DNA from: an uncultured Kiloniella sp.
Lineage (GTDB): Bacteria > Pseudomonadota > Alphaproteobacteria > Kiloniellales > Kiloniellaceae
NCBI RefSeq assembly: GCF_937128705.1
Contig: NZ_CAKZMP010000265.1
Location: 1 to 36,721, forward strand
Reading direction: 5' to 3'
Length of the DNA: 36,721 nucleotides
Shown in pieces: positions 1,149 through 8,990 of this stretch. The translations under genes and the position numbers were made by a program. Every line of letters begins with the position of its first letter. Within the stretch, counting starts at the first letter, position 1. Below the pieces are notes generated by a model. The model was not told the DNA's origin and ran no database searches. It worked only from the letters and a program-made list of their open reading frames with translations.

Positions 1149-1901
1149 TTAATCGTCTTCCAATTTTTCAACAGGGCGATAATGATAGATGAAATAAATC
1201 ACGGCAAGAATCAAAGCCATAGCATACCAAGTAATAACGTATTCCAGATGATTATTCACCAAAGCTATACGCGTTTGCCCGCCAAGAGGATATCCCCCCG
1301 GATTAGCCGTAGGGCCTGCATCAAGATAGACACTCATCACCGGATTAGACAGATCCGTTTTCTGGCTCATTTCTTTGATATCTGTATAAAACCAGAAGTT
1401 ATCTTCGGGATCATTGACTGGGCGCACAAATTCATACCCCTTCCATCCACCAACGCGAAGAAGACCTTCTATTTTAACGGGCCCATCAACCTGACCTTCA
1501 GGCCGAGAGGCAGGCGCTTTAAACTCAGAAGGAACAAAACCACGGTTGATCAGAATTTGTCGCCCATCCGTCATCACAAAAGGGGTAATAATCTGGATGC
1601 CTAACTGCCGATCCAATGAACGTGCCCCCATGATAAGCTCTTTATCATGCAGGAACTCACCCTCTACCCAGACATTGATAAACTCATCAGCTTGCGGGTC
1701 AGCAACTTCGCCGGGATATGTTTCAGAAAAAGAAATAGCCACAGCAGAAGCGCGATCTGTTCGTAACGCAATTTGATCTTTTTTCCATTCCATGCGTGAT
1801 AACTGCCAAGTGCCCAGAGCAATCGCAATCAAAACGACGGGAATAGTAAACATCGTAGGCCAAAAAGTTGGCTGGAAACGGCGTAAAGTGCCTTTGGTCA
1901 T
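1149..1901 (-). CDS. SURF1 family cytochrome oxidase assembly protein
   Basis: Inner-membrane assembly factor of aa3 cytochrome c oxidase, thought to help heme a insertion into subunit I. It has about 250 residues, with a transmembrane helix near residues 14-33 followed by WQLSRMEWK, a periplasmic domain, and a second helix near the C-terminus (YVITWYAMALILAVIYFIYHY). This two-helix layout is the SURF1 pattern. The longest frame begins three codons earlier at a TTG (1910). I prefer the ATG at 1901 because an AGGA sits about 10 bases before it, whereas it is only one base from the TTG. It lies downstream of ctaE after a 286-base gap holding a strong nested hairpin, so its expression may be partly uncoupled from the oxidase genes. 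Confidence 0.93.
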   Translation of the reverse strand: MTKGTLRRFQPTFWPTMFTIPVVLIAIALGTWQLSRMEWKKDQIALRTDRASAVAISFSETYPGEVADPQADEFINVWVEGEFLHDKELIMGARSLDRQLGIQIITPFVMTDGRQILINRGFVPSEFKAPASRPEGQVDGPVKIEGLLRVGGWKGYEFVRPVNDPEDNFWFYTDIKEMSQKTDLSNPVMSVYLDAGPTANPGGYPLGGQTRIALVNNHLEYVITWYAMALILAVIYFIYHYRPVEKLEDD

Positions 1902-2084
1902 AATCGACAAATCCTGTGTCGCTTGCTTTTAATAATATTCGAGCGCCACCATAAGGCCTTTGCAAGAACAGAGCAAAGCGATTGAGGCCCTCTGACAAGA
2001 AAATCTCTTAAACATAGGGCGAATGTAAAAGGTCGAAGACATCTCCAGTGACATTCCCAAAGGCATACTTGGAAACATAGAAAG

Positions 2085-2187: not shown

Positions 2188-2985
2188 TTAGCCACCCCAC
2201 CAGTAAACAGCAACAAATAGGAACAACCAGACAACGTCCACGAAATGCCAGTACCAAGCAGCCGCCTCAAAGCCAACATGGGCTTCAGGTGTGAAGTGAC
2301 CTTTTTTTGTACGGATCAAACATACAAAAAGGAAAATGGTACCAACGATAACGTGGAAACCGTGGAAACCGGTCGCCATGTAGAAGGTAGAAGAATAGAT
2401 ATTATCTGTGAACCCGAATGCAGCGTGGCTGTATTCGAAAGCCTGAAGTGCCGTAAAAATCACGCCAAGACCGACAGTAATCATCAAAGCATGTACCGCT
2501 TGCTTCTGTTGACTGTTCAAGATCGCATGATGCGCCCAAGTCACGGAACAACCGGACAGCAGTAGGATCAGCGTGTTCAAAAACGGCAGATCAAATGCAT
2601 CAAACGTTACAACATCAGCTGGCGGCCAAACGCCCCCGATAACTTCACTCGGATAGAACGCCGCCGTGAAATATGCCCAGAAGAATGCAACAAAGAACAT
2701 TACTTCAGAAGCGATGAATAGTACCATCCCGTACCGCAGACCAATACGAACCACAGGGGTATGAAGGTGACGAACATAAGCTTCGTTCACCACGTCACGC
2801 CACCAGCCATACGTACAAATAAGAACCGATGCGATACCCGCAAAAAGAACTATATTTGTATAGTCGTGCATCATCAAAACAAGACCTGTCGCCATCAAGC
2901 CAGCAGCAAAAGCTGTCAGCAAAGGCCAAGGGCTTGGATCAACCAAATGATACGGATGTTTTACTTCGTCGTGCCCTGCACTCAT
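2188..2985 (-). CDS. ctaE: Cytochrome c oxidase subunit III
   Basis: Subunit III of the aa3-type terminal oxidase, a seven-helix inner-membrane protein that stabilises subunit I and proton uptake. It has 265 residues, the normal length for the alphaproteobacterial and mitochondrial protein. Family landmarks include [13 protein letters not shown] at the N-terminus, [14 protein letters not shown], a GGVWPP loop, [11 protein letters not shown], and a C-terminal [14 protein letters not shown] containing the conserved HFVDVVWL. The ATG at 2985 follows the ctaG stop by 34 bases, and the gene is part of the ctaC-ctaD-ctaB-coxF-ctaG-ctaE run. Identification is certain. Confidence 0.98.
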
Positions 2986-3019: not shown

Positions 3020-3631
3020 TTAATTGACCTCTACAACCGGTTTATTTCCGGTGTCATTACCCAAATCACCCACATCCACACTATCTTCTTCTTCAGTATC
3101 CCGGAAGAAAGTGTATGATAGAGTGATTGTTTTTACGTCACTGAGATTCGGATCATTCTCTATTTCCGGATCGACGTAGAAAGTGACAGGCATGTCAACT
3201 TCTTGTCCCGGCAACAAAGTCTGCTCTGAAAAACAGAAACAATCTACTTTTACGAAATACTGACCAGCCTTTAGCGGTGTCACATTAAATGTGGCAACAC
3301 CTTTAACCTTATCATCAGACGTATTTTTTGCGCGATAAAACGCAATTCCTTCTTCCCCGACCTTAAGATCAACCGCGCGCTGCGCAGGCTTAAAGTGCCA
3401 AGGCAAATCTCCATTCACCGAAGAATCAAATCGAATAGTCACATCACGATCACTAACGACCAGATCGTCCGTTGCTCCAGCTTCAGAAACCTGTGTTGTG
3501 CCACCATATCCTGTGACCTGACAAAACAGCTTATACAGTGGCACGGATGCAAAAGCCAACGCCACCATTCCACAGACAACACCGCCCAGAATGATTGCAA
3601 CGCGCGCATTTTTATCGCCAGCGACAGACAT
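3020..3631 (-). CDS. ctaG: Cytochrome c oxidase assembly protein CtaG (Cox11)
   Basis: Copper chaperone that delivers CuB to subunit I. It has 203 residues: an N-terminal membrane anchor (about 11-31) followed by PLYKLFCQVTGYGGTTQ, with the conserved cysteine C37 close to the membrane, then a periplasmic immunoglobulin-like domain. The copper-binding CFCF motif is at 131-134 (KVDCFCFSEQTL). The family's MPVTFYVDPEI block follows. The acidic C-terminal tail (EEEDSVDVGDLGND) is typical. Its start lies one base beyond the stop of the small coxF-like gene, which implies translational coupling. Confidence 0.97.
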   Translation of the reverse strand: MSVAGDKNARVAIILGGVVCGMVALAFASVPLYKLFCQVTGYGGTTQVSEAGATDDLVVSDRDVTIRFDSSVNGDLPWHFKPAQRAVDLKVGEEGIAFYRAKNTSDDKVKGVATFNVTPLKAGQYFVKVDCFCFSEQTLLPGQEVDMPVTFYVDPEIENDPNLSDVKTITLSYTFFRDTEEEDSVDVGDLGNDTGNKPVVEVN

Positions 3632-3789: not shown

Positions 3790-4725
3790 TTAACCACCAA
3801 TCAAACTCAAAATACCTGGCGTTCGATCAATAATAAGAACGGCAAAGAGAACAAAGAGATATAGAATAGAATAAAAGAACATCTTGCGAGCATGGCGATC
3901 TTCTTCAGAACGCAGCACCTTGATGTTCAGCCATAGAAAATACGAACTCGCGATCAGCGCGACAGCCCCATACAGCAGACCAGCAACATTGAAGTATACT
4001 GGCGCCAGAACAACAGGGAAAAGGGCAATAGTATAAACCAGCATTTGCCACTTAGTATTCTCACGACCAGAAACAACTGGCAACATCGGCACTTTAGCAG
4101 CAGCGTAATCGCCATCTTTATAAAGCGCCAAGGCCCAAAAATGAGGCGGCGTCCACATAAAGATAACCAAGAACAGAACAATAGATTCAATAGAGACAGT
4201 TCCTGTTACAGCCGCCCAGCCAATCATCGGAGGGAACGCGCCGGCAGCCCCACCAATGACAATGTTTTGTGGCGTGCGGCGTTTTAGGAACATTGTGTAT
4301 ACAAAAACATAAAAACCGTTGGCTAAAGCCAGAAGTGCTGCAGCGGTCCAATTAACCGCTAAGCCCATGATCATCACAGAAAACAGGCTGAGGATCACTC
4401 CAAAACTCAAGGCAACGTCCGGTGCCATACGACCAGCCGGGATCGGGCGTTTTTTCGTACGTGTCATGATCGCGTCAATATCGCGGTCATACCACATGTT
4501 AATTGCTCCGGCGCCACCAGATGCAATCGCAATGCAGAACAGGGCAATAATTCCAAGGAATGGATGAATAGTGCCCGGAGCAACCATCAAACCGGAGAAT
4601 CCAGTGAACACAACAAGGTACATGACACCCGGCTTCATCAAAGCCCAGAAATCAGCAACCTGCGCAACACCGCTTAAAGAAGCAGTATCAGTTGTTGTTG
4701 TATTTTCCATAGATGTATCGGTCAC
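3790..4725 (-). CDS. ctaB: Protoheme IX farnesyltransferase (heme O synthase)
   Basis: UbiA-superfamily prenyltransferase that adds a farnesyl group to heme b, giving heme O, the precursor of heme a for the oxidase. It has 311 residues and about nine membrane helices. The first Asp-rich motif is N76-MWY-D80-RDI-D84, followed by TRTKKRPIPAG. The second polar loop contains YKDGDYAAAKVPMLPVVSG. The chosen start is a GTG at 4725, because a clear AGGAG (complement of 4732-4736) sits six bases upstream of it. An ATG five codons inside (4710) lacks such a site. It follows ctaD after a 75-base gap holding a strong hairpin and is nearly contiguous with the coxF-like gene. Confidence 0.97.
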   Translation of the reverse strand: MTDTSMENTTTTDTASLSGVAQVADFWALMKPGVMYLVVFTGFSGLMVAPGTIHPFLGIIALFCIAIASGGAGAINMWYDRDIDAIMTRTKKRPIPAGRMAPDVALSFGVILSLFSVMIMGLAVNWTAAALLALANGFYVFVYTMFLKRRTPQNIVIGGAAGAFPPMIGWAAVTGTVSIESIVLFLVIFMWTPPHFWALALYKDGDYAAAKVPMLPVVSGRENTKWQMLVYTIALFPVVLAPVYFNVAGLLYGAVALIASSYFLWLNIKVLRSEEDRHARKMFFYSILYLFVLFAVLIIDRTPGILSLIGG

Positions 4726-4800: not shown

Positions 4801-6405
<1,605 letters not shown>

Positions 6406-6482: not shown

Positions 6483-7316
6483 TCAGTTAAGCTGAGCAAC
6501 CTGTACGGAACGATCATCTTCAATCGCAGCAAATTCTTCCTTGGCGAACTCAACCCATTTGTCGAACTCTTCTTTGGAAACGGCTTTGATCATGATCGGC
6601 ATATAGGAATGGCCTGTGCCACAAATCTCTGAACACTGACCGTAGTATGTACCTTCTGAGTTCACTTCGAACCAAGTCTCATTGATACGCCCAGGTACGC
6701 CATCGAGCTTCAAGCCCATAGAAGGCATTGCAAAAGAGTGAATAACGTCATCACCAGTTACCAAGAGACGAACTTTCGTGTTAACAGGGACCACAATCGC
6801 GTTATCCGTCGTCAACAAACGTGGCTCACCAGATTCCAGTTCATCTTCTGACTTCATATAAGCGTCAAATGTGAAATCGCCTTGGTCAGGATATTCATAA
6901 GACCAATACCACTGTTTTCCGATCGCTTTGATCGTCATCTCGGTATCAGGATTACTGTCCGCCGCATAAAGAATTTTGAACGAAGGTATCGCAATAATCA
7001 CCAAAATGATTACCGGAACAGCAGTCCAGATAATTTCAAGCAGCGTGTTATGGCTTGTCTTTGATGGGACAGGGTTCCGTTTTTCAGAAAAACGGAACAT
7101 CACATAAAGCATCAGAACCAGAACAACGACACAAACTGCGACAATAATATAAAGCAGTAGCTCGTGAAATTCTCCCAATGCAACAGCAGTCGGAGAAGCG
7201 GCATCTTGAAGACCAAGACCCCATTCGACTGGCTGAGAGGCGTGACCAGTAGCAGCCAAACCGCCGAACAGTGCAACAGCACTAATTAGATAGGCAATCC
7301 GTTTCAGAAACGTCAT
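6483..7316 (-). CDS. ctaC: Cytochrome c oxidase subunit II
   Basis: Electron-entry subunit that takes electrons from cytochrome c through CuA. It has 277 residues from the chosen ATG at 7316: a signal peptide (MTFLKRIAYLISAVALFGGL, cleavage likely after ATGHA), two membrane helices (about 51-73 and 93-112), then a periplasmic cupredoxin domain. The aromatic electron-entry block is QWYWSYEYPD (135-144). The CuA ligands are all present: H193, C228, E230, C232, H236 and M239. The open frame extends 46 codons further upstream, but those residues do not look like a signal peptide and an AGGA lies about 10 bases before 7316, so the shorter start is preferred. First gene of the oxidase operon. Confidence 0.97.
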   Translation of the reverse strand: MTFLKRIAYLISAVALFGGLAATGHASQPVEWGLGLQDAASPTAVALGEFHELLLYIIVAVCVVVLVLMLYVMFRFSEKRNPVPSKTSHNTLLEIIWTAVPVIILVIIAIPSFKILYAADSNPDTEMTIKAIGKQWYWSYEYPDQGDFTFDAYMKSEDELESGEPRLLTTDNAIVVPVNTKVRLLVTGDDVIHSFAMPSMGLKLDGVPGRINETWFEVNSEGTYYGQCSEICGTGHSYMPIMIKAVSKEEFDKWVEFAKEEFAAIEDDRSVQVAQLN

Positions 7317-7359
7317 GTACTCAACATCCTGTTTTTTTATATCAACTTTTGTTCCTGAA

Positions 7360-7373
7360 TTGATCAGGATCAA
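7360..7373 (-). promoter_or_regulatory. Perfect FNR/FixK/Anr-type box upstream of ctaC
   Basis: The 14-mer TTGATCAGGATCAA matches the consensus TTGAT-N4-ATCAA with no mismatch. It lies in the ctaC upstream region, 43 bases before the start codon. CRP/FNR-family regulators such as FNR, FixK and Anr bind this palindrome and report low oxygen. A good -10 placed correctly downstream of the site was not found: a TATAAA at 7336-7341 would start transcription inside the ribosome site. Repression of the low-affinity aa3 oxidase when oxygen is scarce is therefore the simpler reading. An overlapping dyad TCCTGA-N5-TCAGGA (7353-7369) is also visible. Confidence 0.6.
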
Positions 7374-7560
7374 AGTATCTTTCCCGATTCCAAGACTAAT
7401 ATACAGAATGGATGATTCTGACACTAGCTGGACTCCAAAGTTATTCTGGCGCAACCTACCCTATTGAAACCCGAGAGGACAAGCCCCAGATACACAAGAA
7501 TTACGCATAGTAGATGCTTTAAGCTACCAAAAGATAAACATTAAGTGAACTATACTCCTT

Positions 7561-7626
7561 CCCGGGAAGCCCGTCCCCGGGTTGCGACCTTATGACGCAG
7601 AACCCCATTTACCTCATAAATCTGCG
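7561..7626 (-). other. Two hairpins downstream of the DUF3422 gene
   Basis: Between the DUF3422 stop and the ctaC upstream region are two inverted repeats. CGCAGA/TCTGCG (7596-7601, 7621-7626) lies closest to the stop. CCCGGG/CCCGGG (7561-7566, 7576-7581) with a 9-base loop lies beyond it. Neither has a U tract on the minus strand, so they may form a non-canonical 3' end for the DUF3422 transcript or simply be GC-rich spacer. The whole 327-base gap between the DUF3422 stop and the ctaC start otherwise holds only the FNR-like box and the ctaC ribosome site. Confidence 0.35.
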
Positions 7627-7643
7627 CGTTTTACATTTAATTC

Positions 7644-8990
7644 TTAGTGTGAATTCCGACTTTCCTGCTCAACTATTTTACGGACACGGCGTACACCTAA
7701 CCATAACGCAGCAACAACAAACGGGATAGATACAGCCGCAACAATAGACGCGTTTATATCGACTCCAGCGGTATTAACCCCCTTTGCCAAATAGTAAATC
7801 AAGCTAACGACATAGTAACTGATCGCCGCCACAGAAAGACCTTCTACTGTCTCCTGTAATCTCAGCTGAATACTTGCTCTTTTATCCATAGACTTCAGAA
7901 GTGCAGAGTTCTGTTCCTCCAGTTGAATATCAACACGCGTTCTCAATAACTGTCCAGCCCGCGCAACCCTTTTAGAAAGTGTATCCAAACGCAATGCCAT
8001 CGCCTCACAAGTTCGCATTGCCGGGGTTAGACGCCGATCAAGAAAACTTTCCATCCGTTGAAAGCCATCCATGTTCCCTTCTTTCAACTTCAAGATTCGC
8101 TGTTTAACCAGTTCGTGATAAGCTTTCGACGCTGAAAACCGATAGTTGGTAGCAGCTGCAGCCTGCTCAATTTCAGCCGATAGCTCAGTCAACTCGCTCA
8201 GCAACTGCTTTTCGTTATCCACATCCCGGCGGTCGGTCATACGCGTCGTTATATCCTTTAGCGCGCGCCCTGCTTTTGCCAAACGATCCCCATATTGCTG
8301 TGCCAGAGGAAGAGAGAGAAGGGCCATCATTCGATAGGTATCAATTTCGAGCAACCGTTGAACAGCACGCCCTATTTGTCTTGGTTTCAAACCGTAATCT
8401 TTAATAAGGATGCGGCCATACCCGTCCTCGTTAATGCTAAAATCCATCCAAACACCGGCAAGTCCACCACGTAGTGTACAGGCAGATAGATGCCCCGTAG
8501 GAAAGAAAGAAACTTGCTCCTGCATCGTGCGCTCCGGTGCATCGTGACCTTCGAGTTCAAGATGCACACCGACCAGTCTTTGACCCGGTACGGCATTAAG
8601 CCAATCCACAGGTACCAGTTCTATTGCCGTCTTTGAGAAAGGTTTATGATATGCCTGTTTTGGCTTTTGAACACTTGGTGCCGTATCGTACTGCTTTCGA
8701 TCCGGATCTTTTCTGTTGCGAAAAAAAGTGTAAGTGGAAAATTCTGTATGACGCTCCCAAACCACGTAAAAGTGACCTAGGTCAGCCATAAAATGTTTCG
8801 TTCCTGGGGCTGGTGCTGCCACGTTAAAACGTTGGCATAACAACCCCACATGGGCTCTTTCCTCTTCGGCTTTGTTTTCTCCTGATAACATTCCTATATG
8901 AGTGATAGTTTCTGGACCAGTCAGCTGGGTAAATGGCCTTGCATGTAATTCATTACAAAGCTCAACCCGTAAGGGGTGATCGCGCAACAT
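7644..8990 (-). CDS. DUF3422 family membrane protein
   Basis: Protein of unknown function, 448 residues, matching the proteobacterial DUF3422 family by its opening (MLRDHPLRVELCNELHARPF, with the characteristic HPLR...NELHARP). The central part includes RILIKDYGLKPRQIGRAVQRLLEIDTYRMMALL. The middle and C-terminal third are rich in charged, helix-forming residues suggesting coiled coil (about 230-375). Two hydrophobic helices follow near residues 382-402 and 412-430, ending in a basic tail, so it is probably anchored in the inner membrane with a large cytoplasmic part. AAGGA lies six bases before the ATG. It stands alone between the divergent tldD and the ctaC promoter region on the same strand. 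No function should be assigned. Confidence 0.88.
   Translation of the reverse strand: MLRDHPLRVELCNELHARPFTQLTGPETITHIGMLSGENKAEEERAHVGLLCQRFNVAAPAPGTKHFMADLGHFYVVWERHTEFSTYTFFRNRKDPDRKQYDTAPSVQKPKQAYHKPFSKTAIELVPVDWLNAVPGQRLVGVHLELEGHDAPERTMQEQVSFFPTGHLSACTLRGGLAGVWMDFSINEDGYGRILIKDYGLKPRQIGRAVQRLLEIDTYRMMALLSLPLAQQYGDRLAKAGRALKDITTRMTDRRDVDNEKQLLSELTELSAEIEQAAAATNYRFSASKAYHELVKQRILKLKEGNMDGFQRMESFLDRRLTPAMRTCEAMALRLDTLSKRVARAGQLLRTRVDIQLEEQNSALLKSMDKRASIQLRLQETVEGLSVAAISYYVVSLIYYLAKGVNTAGVDINASIVAAVSIPFVVAALWLGVRRVRKIVEQESRNSH

Follow-up and report, generated by a model that had tools for sequence, protein, structure and literature searches.

What keeps a perfect FNR/FixK-type palindrome in place upstream of ctaC in Kiloniella, and could it allow oxygen to set the expression of the aa3-type oxidase? 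We addressed this question in a window of 36,721 nucleotides (the whole stretch of DNA that was analysed), in which the aa3 oxidase operon has the order ctaC-ctaD-ctaB-ctaG-ctaE-SURF1. By CtaD, the nearest named genomes are those of Kiloniella litopenaei and K. majae (98% identity), and the genus name used here rests on that match. The operon and the palindrome before it are as follows.

1149..1910, minus strand: SURF1-like assembly protein (NCBIfam match below cut-off)
2188..2985, minus strand: ctaE, subunit III (NCBIfam match below cut-off)
3020..3631, minus strand: ctaG, oxidase assembly protein (profile match)
3790..4725, minus strand: ctaB, haem o synthase (profile match)
4801..6402, minus strand: ctaD (coxA), subunit I (TIGR02891, above cut-off)
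6483..7316, minus strand: ctaC (coxB), cytochrome c oxidase subunit II (TIGR02866, above cut-off)
7327..7330, minus strand: predicted Shine-Dalgarno AGGA of ctaC (sequence and alignment of the genus leaders)
7360..7373, minus strand: FNR/FixK-type palindrome, the proposed FnrL operator, which reads TTGATCCTGATCAA on the coding strand and TTGATCAGGATCAA on the plus strand

The original prediction had described the palindrome as free of mismatches and as lying 43 bases upstream of ctaC, and both statements were borne out: a pattern scan revealed no mismatch to TTGAT-N4-ATCAA, and the gap to the ctaC ATG (7316-7314), a start codon present in all nine members of the genus, is 43 bases. An alternative start, the TTG at 7454 of a mechanically called ORF covering the palindrome, was rejected, as it is not common to the nine Kiloniella genomes. 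No other mismatch-free copy occurs in the window, in which 38 matches were found at up to two mismatches, a number not clearly above chance (shuffle mean 29; 7 of 100 shuffles as high). Under a first-order Markov model, perfect sites are expected 0.0008–0.0009 times in the 327-bp intergenic region and about 0.10 times in the window. For the whole 4.47-Mb genome, 26 perfect palindromes were counted, with 11–13 expected under the same kind of model and one occurrence of the reversed pattern. By ORF inspection, 9 of the 26 lie between genes and 17 within ORFs (16 of at least 150 aa and one of 107 aa, some of which may not be genes), so a single perfect palindrome is nothing unusual in this genome. 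The weight of the evidence therefore lies in the position before ctaC and in conservation, not in the perfection of the palindrome per se.

Conservation was followed through the genus, family, and order. A CtaD search of 58 genomes, the source genome included, matched 57; 56 loci from 55 genomes were examined, with two genomes carrying ctaD fragments (G019 and G030) left out, and among these loci one (L094) was without a ctaC match and another (L093) without usable upstream DNA. The original prediction depended on the site being shared by close relatives, and alignment of the ctaC upstream regions found it in all nine Kiloniella genomes, perfect in eight and with one mismatch in the ninth (ATGATCTCGATCAA, G006). 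Its position in these genomes is −58 to −51 from the ATG, and three of the four spacer bases vary. The records of K. litopenaei and K. majae (L098 and L099) also carry the palindrome, although they may duplicate two of the nine genomes. Allowing one mismatch, we found the palindrome in none of the 45 ctaC upstream regions that were usable outside the genus but within the family and order, scanned over up to 700 bp of upstream DNA (minimum 438 bp). Another element limited to the genus adjoins the proposed operator:

7383..7399, minus strand: conserved block TTAGTCTTGGAATCGGG, genus only (alignment of ctaC upstream regions)

This 17-bp block (TTAGTCnTGGAATCGGG) stops 9 bp before the palindrome and is near-invariant in the genus; outside the genus, matches among 129 regions had four mismatches at best.

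An operator of this kind calls for a protein to bind it, and the original prediction expected an FNR-family regulator with matching recognition residues. The genome search returned three strong CRP/FNR matches, one of which is such a protein. It is encoded at C385:1022-1762 and has a C-x2-C-x7-C motif, an extra cysteine in LCRF, and an ETVSR recognition helix; we take these cysteines to be those of the FNR cluster and E--SR to be the FNR contact residues. The cysteines and ETVSR are present in all nine congeners (in G006, four residues before the helix are masked). Against the NCBIfam FnrL equivalog the protein scored 180 bits, where the cut-off is 300, and we therefore call it FnrL-like without placing it formally in that model. 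The closest solved sequences are FixK2 (4i2o) and an FNR type regulator (5cvr and others). The gene, called fnrL here, is divergent from ccoN in eight of the nine genomes; in G000 the contig ends before ccoN, and fragments of ccoN are all that was found there. Upstream of fnrL, on its ccoN side, every one of the nine genomes has two FNR-type sites with one mismatch each.

Tandem CRP/FNR-family regulators are also encoded near nirK (L033 6338-7887; nirK itself matched TIGR02376 above cut-off). One, of 251 aa, has ETLSR in its helix and a perfect palindrome of its own 50 nt upstream of its gene, and in NCBIfam it scores best against FtrB, with 120 bits under a cut-off of 211; its tandem partner carries DPASFSR instead of E--SR. 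Perfect intergenic palindromes precede not only this CRP/FNR-family gene but also the napD, UbiT, CcmC, SthA (Si-specific transhydrogenase), Usp, and PfkB kinase genes, and one further copy lies between napC and thiC. In the nap cluster that follows its palindrome, NapD was matched below and NapA above cut-off. Several of these genes would suit an oxygen regulon, and together they make a plausible FnrL regulon.

To place the site in the wider class we used 130 regions from 130 genomes, chosen with some skipped from the best-scoring matches listed and thus not a random sample, out of the 313 of 385 class genomes that matched; positions were counted from the protein match and not from the start codon. 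An FNR-like palindrome with at most one mismatch occurs in 16 of the 130 regions, representing 11 genera, compared with 0–7 (mean about 2) for 19 permuted half-sites. A perfect box occurs in one region, and 4 of the 19 permutations also have one. One of the 16 boxes (L229) is in the ctaC coding start, and the other 15 are above the likely start codon. The Rhizobiaceae boxes, perfect in Allorhizobium (L165 2058-2071) and with one mismatch in Agrobacterium (L169), are found about 20–25 nt ahead of the start codon of ctaC, again near the ribosome-binding region. On the basis of these 16 regions and the Rhizobiaceae records, FNR-family control of ctaC seems to recur in the class. The spread over 11 genera, with about 2 of the 16 boxes expected by chance and one coding, suggests that such control may have been recruited repeatedly.

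The palindrome does not stand alone at the RNA level, for it forms the 5′ arm and the loop of a hairpin in the ctaC leader:

7344..7377, minus strand: covarying ctaC-leader stem-loop (folding and covariation, nine leaders)

The outer arms (7371-7377/7344-7350) make seven pairs and the inner arms (7364-7368/7354-7358) five, around a loop at 7359-7363. Compensatory changes were found at 5 of the 12 pairs (7 cells, 8 distinct rows), a number reached by 1 of 500 shuffles, whereas slid versions of the hairpin gave none or one. Further pair types were not above the shuffles (7 observed, 8.0 shuffled). Three lineages (G006, G008, and G002/G003) account for the changes, so the independent covariation events are few. 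Local folding z-scores ranged from −3.05 to −5.48 in all nine congeners, whereas 24 other leaders averaged −0.40. The leader hairpin is maintained by compensatory changes, as expected of an RNA stem-loop under selection. Although one of the 24 other leaders reached −2.8, their average does not support the hairpin as an order-wide leader feature. A search of the genome with the hairpin model returned the ctaC copy alone with a good E-value (next best 1.8), and a search of part of the loci of 68 sources found it in records of the genus alone (next best E 1.6). A known RNA family was rejected, as Rfam gave nothing at E 1 or below for 7250-7700, and no intrinsic terminator (GC-rich hairpin and U run) was found in 7200-7760. 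A literature search, mostly of papers outside subscription, yielded nothing recognised as a ctaC leader hairpin or as an FNR site within one.

Whether bound regulator would raise or lower transcription depends on where the promoter lies. The predicted elements are:

7477..7482, minus strand: predicted −35 hexamer TTGTCC of the ctaC promoter (conserved block in the order)
7453..7458, minus strand: predicted −10 hexamer TAGGTT of the ctaC promoter (18-nt spacer; start predicted near 7446)

These hexamers belong to a block, CTTG followed by TAGGTTGCGCC, that precedes ctaC in many members of the order with the hexamers 17–18 bp apart. At up to two mismatches, TAGGTTGCGCC was found in 39 of 129 regions (11 Kiloniella records and 24 of the 45 other family and order regions among them), compared with 4–10 for five shuffled motifs; a few two-mismatch matches without CTTG look accidental. 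Class-wide it was found in 11 of 130 regions, within the 5–21 of the shuffles and thus not above chance, so the block is not supported as a class-wide feature. A consensus scan detected no minus-strand sigma-70-like site at the ctaC promoter region, so the promoter call rests on conservation. The likely core promoter of ctaC is about 80–85 bp upstream of the palindrome, which would place the palindrome in the transcribed leader, centred near +80.

The original prediction preferred repression to class II activation, and this part is favoured by comparison with the ccoN-side FNR-type site. There a −10-like hexamer stands 21 bp downstream in all nine genomes, TAGGTT in six (the same as the predicted −10 of ctaC), TAAATT in one, and TAGGGT in two. 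At the ctaC palindrome, no conserved −10 about 21–23 bp below the site was found in the nine genomes: six have a weak TAAAAA 19–20 bp downstream and three have nothing similar. The fnrL-side site is also without a consistent −10, so this comparison is only suggestive, and the weak TAAAAA further tempers the claim. Together with the precedent of Dinoroseobacter shibae, discussed below, the comparison favours repression over class II activation at ctaC.

Taking together the computed sequence features, their conservation, the hairpin covariation, the FnrL-like protein, and its plausible regulon, we infer that the palindrome is an operator for an oxygen-sensing FnrL. When oxygen is present, FnrL would lose its [4Fe-4S] cluster, and ctaC would be transcribed from the promoter about 80–85 bp upstream of the palindrome. 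When oxygen is low, dimers of FnrL would bind the palindrome at about +80 in the leader and lower the aa3 operon, most simply by blocking the elongating polymerase as a roadblock. Meanwhile FnrL would activate ccoNOQP from the class II site. The operator would share its bases with the hairpin's 5′ arm and loop. We regard repression of aa3 by FnrL at low oxygen through this palindrome as probable; the roadblock as its means is a possibility to which we give slightly less than an even chance.

Because the palindrome is also the 5′ arm and loop of the hairpin, its conservation could be due to RNA and is alone no proof of an operator. The conserved element might be only a stem-loop of the ctaC leader RNA, kept for stability, for ribosome standby, or as the target of a protein or sRNA, with an accidental resemblance to an FNR site. 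Such an explanation would account for the five compensated pairs, which all but vanish when the hairpin is slid, and for the strong folding in every congener, and it draws support from G006, in which the first T of the half-site has changed and its stem partner has changed along with it, so that the stem was kept there at the operator's expense. It sits poorly, however, with the pattern of invariance across the 42 columns of the hairpin alignment. Nine of the 10 half-site columns are invariant, compared with 6 of the 32 others (hypergeometric P 9e-5, with columns treated as independent and the counts not independent of phylogeny), and among unpaired columns all six in the half-sites are invariant, compared with 1 of 12 elsewhere. 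These paired and unpaired counts argue for an operator in addition to the RNA. A perfect match arising by accident in the 327 bp between the genes would also be rare (expected 0.0008–0.0009 times), the class sample shows an excess of FNR-like boxes upstream of ctaC, and no Rfam family was matched. We judge the RNA-only explanation to be unlikely and the palindrome to be, with high probability, a working FNR-family operator. It is conceivable, as a tentative suggestion that we think rather doubtful, that the operator and the hairpin, encoded by the same bases, are co-selected and form a composite DNA/RNA switch, with DNA-bound FnrL and the transcribed hairpin acting together on aa3 expression; the hairpin might, for example, help the polymerase to pause at an FnrL roadblock.

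If the palindrome is an operator, the FnrL-like protein might not be its main binder. The 251-aa nirK-side protein, possibly NO-responsive and Dnr-like, might occupy it instead, so that aa3 would be switched off in denitrification and not directly by low oxygen; its ETLSR helix and the perfect palindrome before its own gene fit this role. Its NO sensing, however, is a guess from neighbouring genes, its FtrB match is below cut-off, and the aa3 regulator reported in D. shibae is FnrL (in the accessible text of PMC5398030). We consider this binder quite improbable. The sign might also be the reverse, with FnrL switching on, at low oxygen, another ctaC promoter downstream of the palindrome so that aa3 stays on. 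The weak TAAAAA below the palindrome in six genomes could be the trace of such a promoter, but it is absent from the other three, the linker from the palindrome to the Shine-Dalgarno sequence varies in length and sequence, and a conserved arrangement would be expected to resemble that of the ccoN-side site; we hold this activation to be very improbable. Direct FNR-family control, as originally predicted, is thus partly upheld: the site and an FnrL-like protein occur in all nine genomes, but the hairpin confounds the conservation and a second candidate binder exists. The original prediction was right about the site and probably about repression; it did not foresee the likely leader position below an upstream promoter, the hairpin, the second candidate binder, or the RegA-like box described next.

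A second candidate redox element was noted farther upstream:

7583..7599, minus strand: RegA/RegR-like box TGCGTCATAAGGTCGCA (alignment and consensus comparison)

This predicted box is separate from the palindrome and lies 210 bp upstream of it. The DUF3422 gene (PF11902; 7644-8990), on the same strand directly upstream of the ctaC region, has its 3′ end 44 bases from the box. The box is kept in all nine congeners, in some with one or two base changes. Near-palindromic TGCGNCANNNNGTCGCA with at most two mismatches precedes ctaC in 72 of the 130 class regions (L222-L351), compared with 0–8 (mean about 2.4) in 20 shuffles; the RegR consensus is matched exactly in only 8 of the 130. A RegB/PrrB-type kinase was found above cut-off in eight of the nine congeners, the exception being the 77%-complete G006. 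These data suggest that the TGCGNCANNNNGTCGCA box is a widespread alphaproteobacterial control element, putatively RegA/RegR-like and far commoner than the FNR site. Against the RegA/PrrA consensus YSCGGS-N(0-10)-GWCRM, as quoted in the accessible part of PMC5435760, the Kiloniella box has an exact 3′ half-site and one mismatch in the 5′ half-site. According to the same paper, aa3 in Brucella suis is under strong positive RegA control. The Kiloniella box would likewise be a redox control element near that operon. The portions of PMC5748708 and PMC4064962 that concern RegR make no link to ctaC.

Our results provide, for a genus that has received little study, a testable scheme of how the oxidases may be switched, in which one FnrL would raise cbb3 and lower aa3. 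They also carry a warning: where a palindrome in a 5′ leader is conserved, an RNA hairpin may be part of the reason, alongside a DNA-binding protein; comparing paired with unpaired columns can help separate the two.

Control of aa3 by FNR-family proteins has been described in other Alphaproteobacteria, at least in the accessible parts of the reports. In D. shibae, FnrL mediates repression of the aa3-type oxidase, with ctaCBGE and ctaD repressed anaerobically (PMC5398030), and in Rhodobacter sphaeroides a CrpK ChIP peak at the aa3 coxI operon carries a minus sign (PMC4263372, Table 3); the accessible portions of two papers on Rhodobacter capsulatus (PMC5643017 and PMC5359404) contain nothing on aa3. 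As proposed for Kiloniella, an FNR-family regulator in these systems turns down the low-affinity aa3 oxidase when oxygen is scarce, and the FnrL of D. shibae also raises cbb3. The Kiloniella palindrome is absent from the genera tested in the rest of its family and order. It shares its kind of half-site and its proposed FnrL-like regulator with class II FNR/FixK sites, of which the ccoN-side site in this genus is an example, but differs in that the −10-like hexamer conserved below the latter has no conserved counterpart at ctaC, whose promoter is likely upstream. The systems are compared here by regulatory effect. FnrL-dependent repression of aa3 is already known from Dinoroseobacter; what is new in Kiloniella is the likely placement in the leader together with the hairpin, and the position of the proposed operator within a conserved leader hairpin is unusual.
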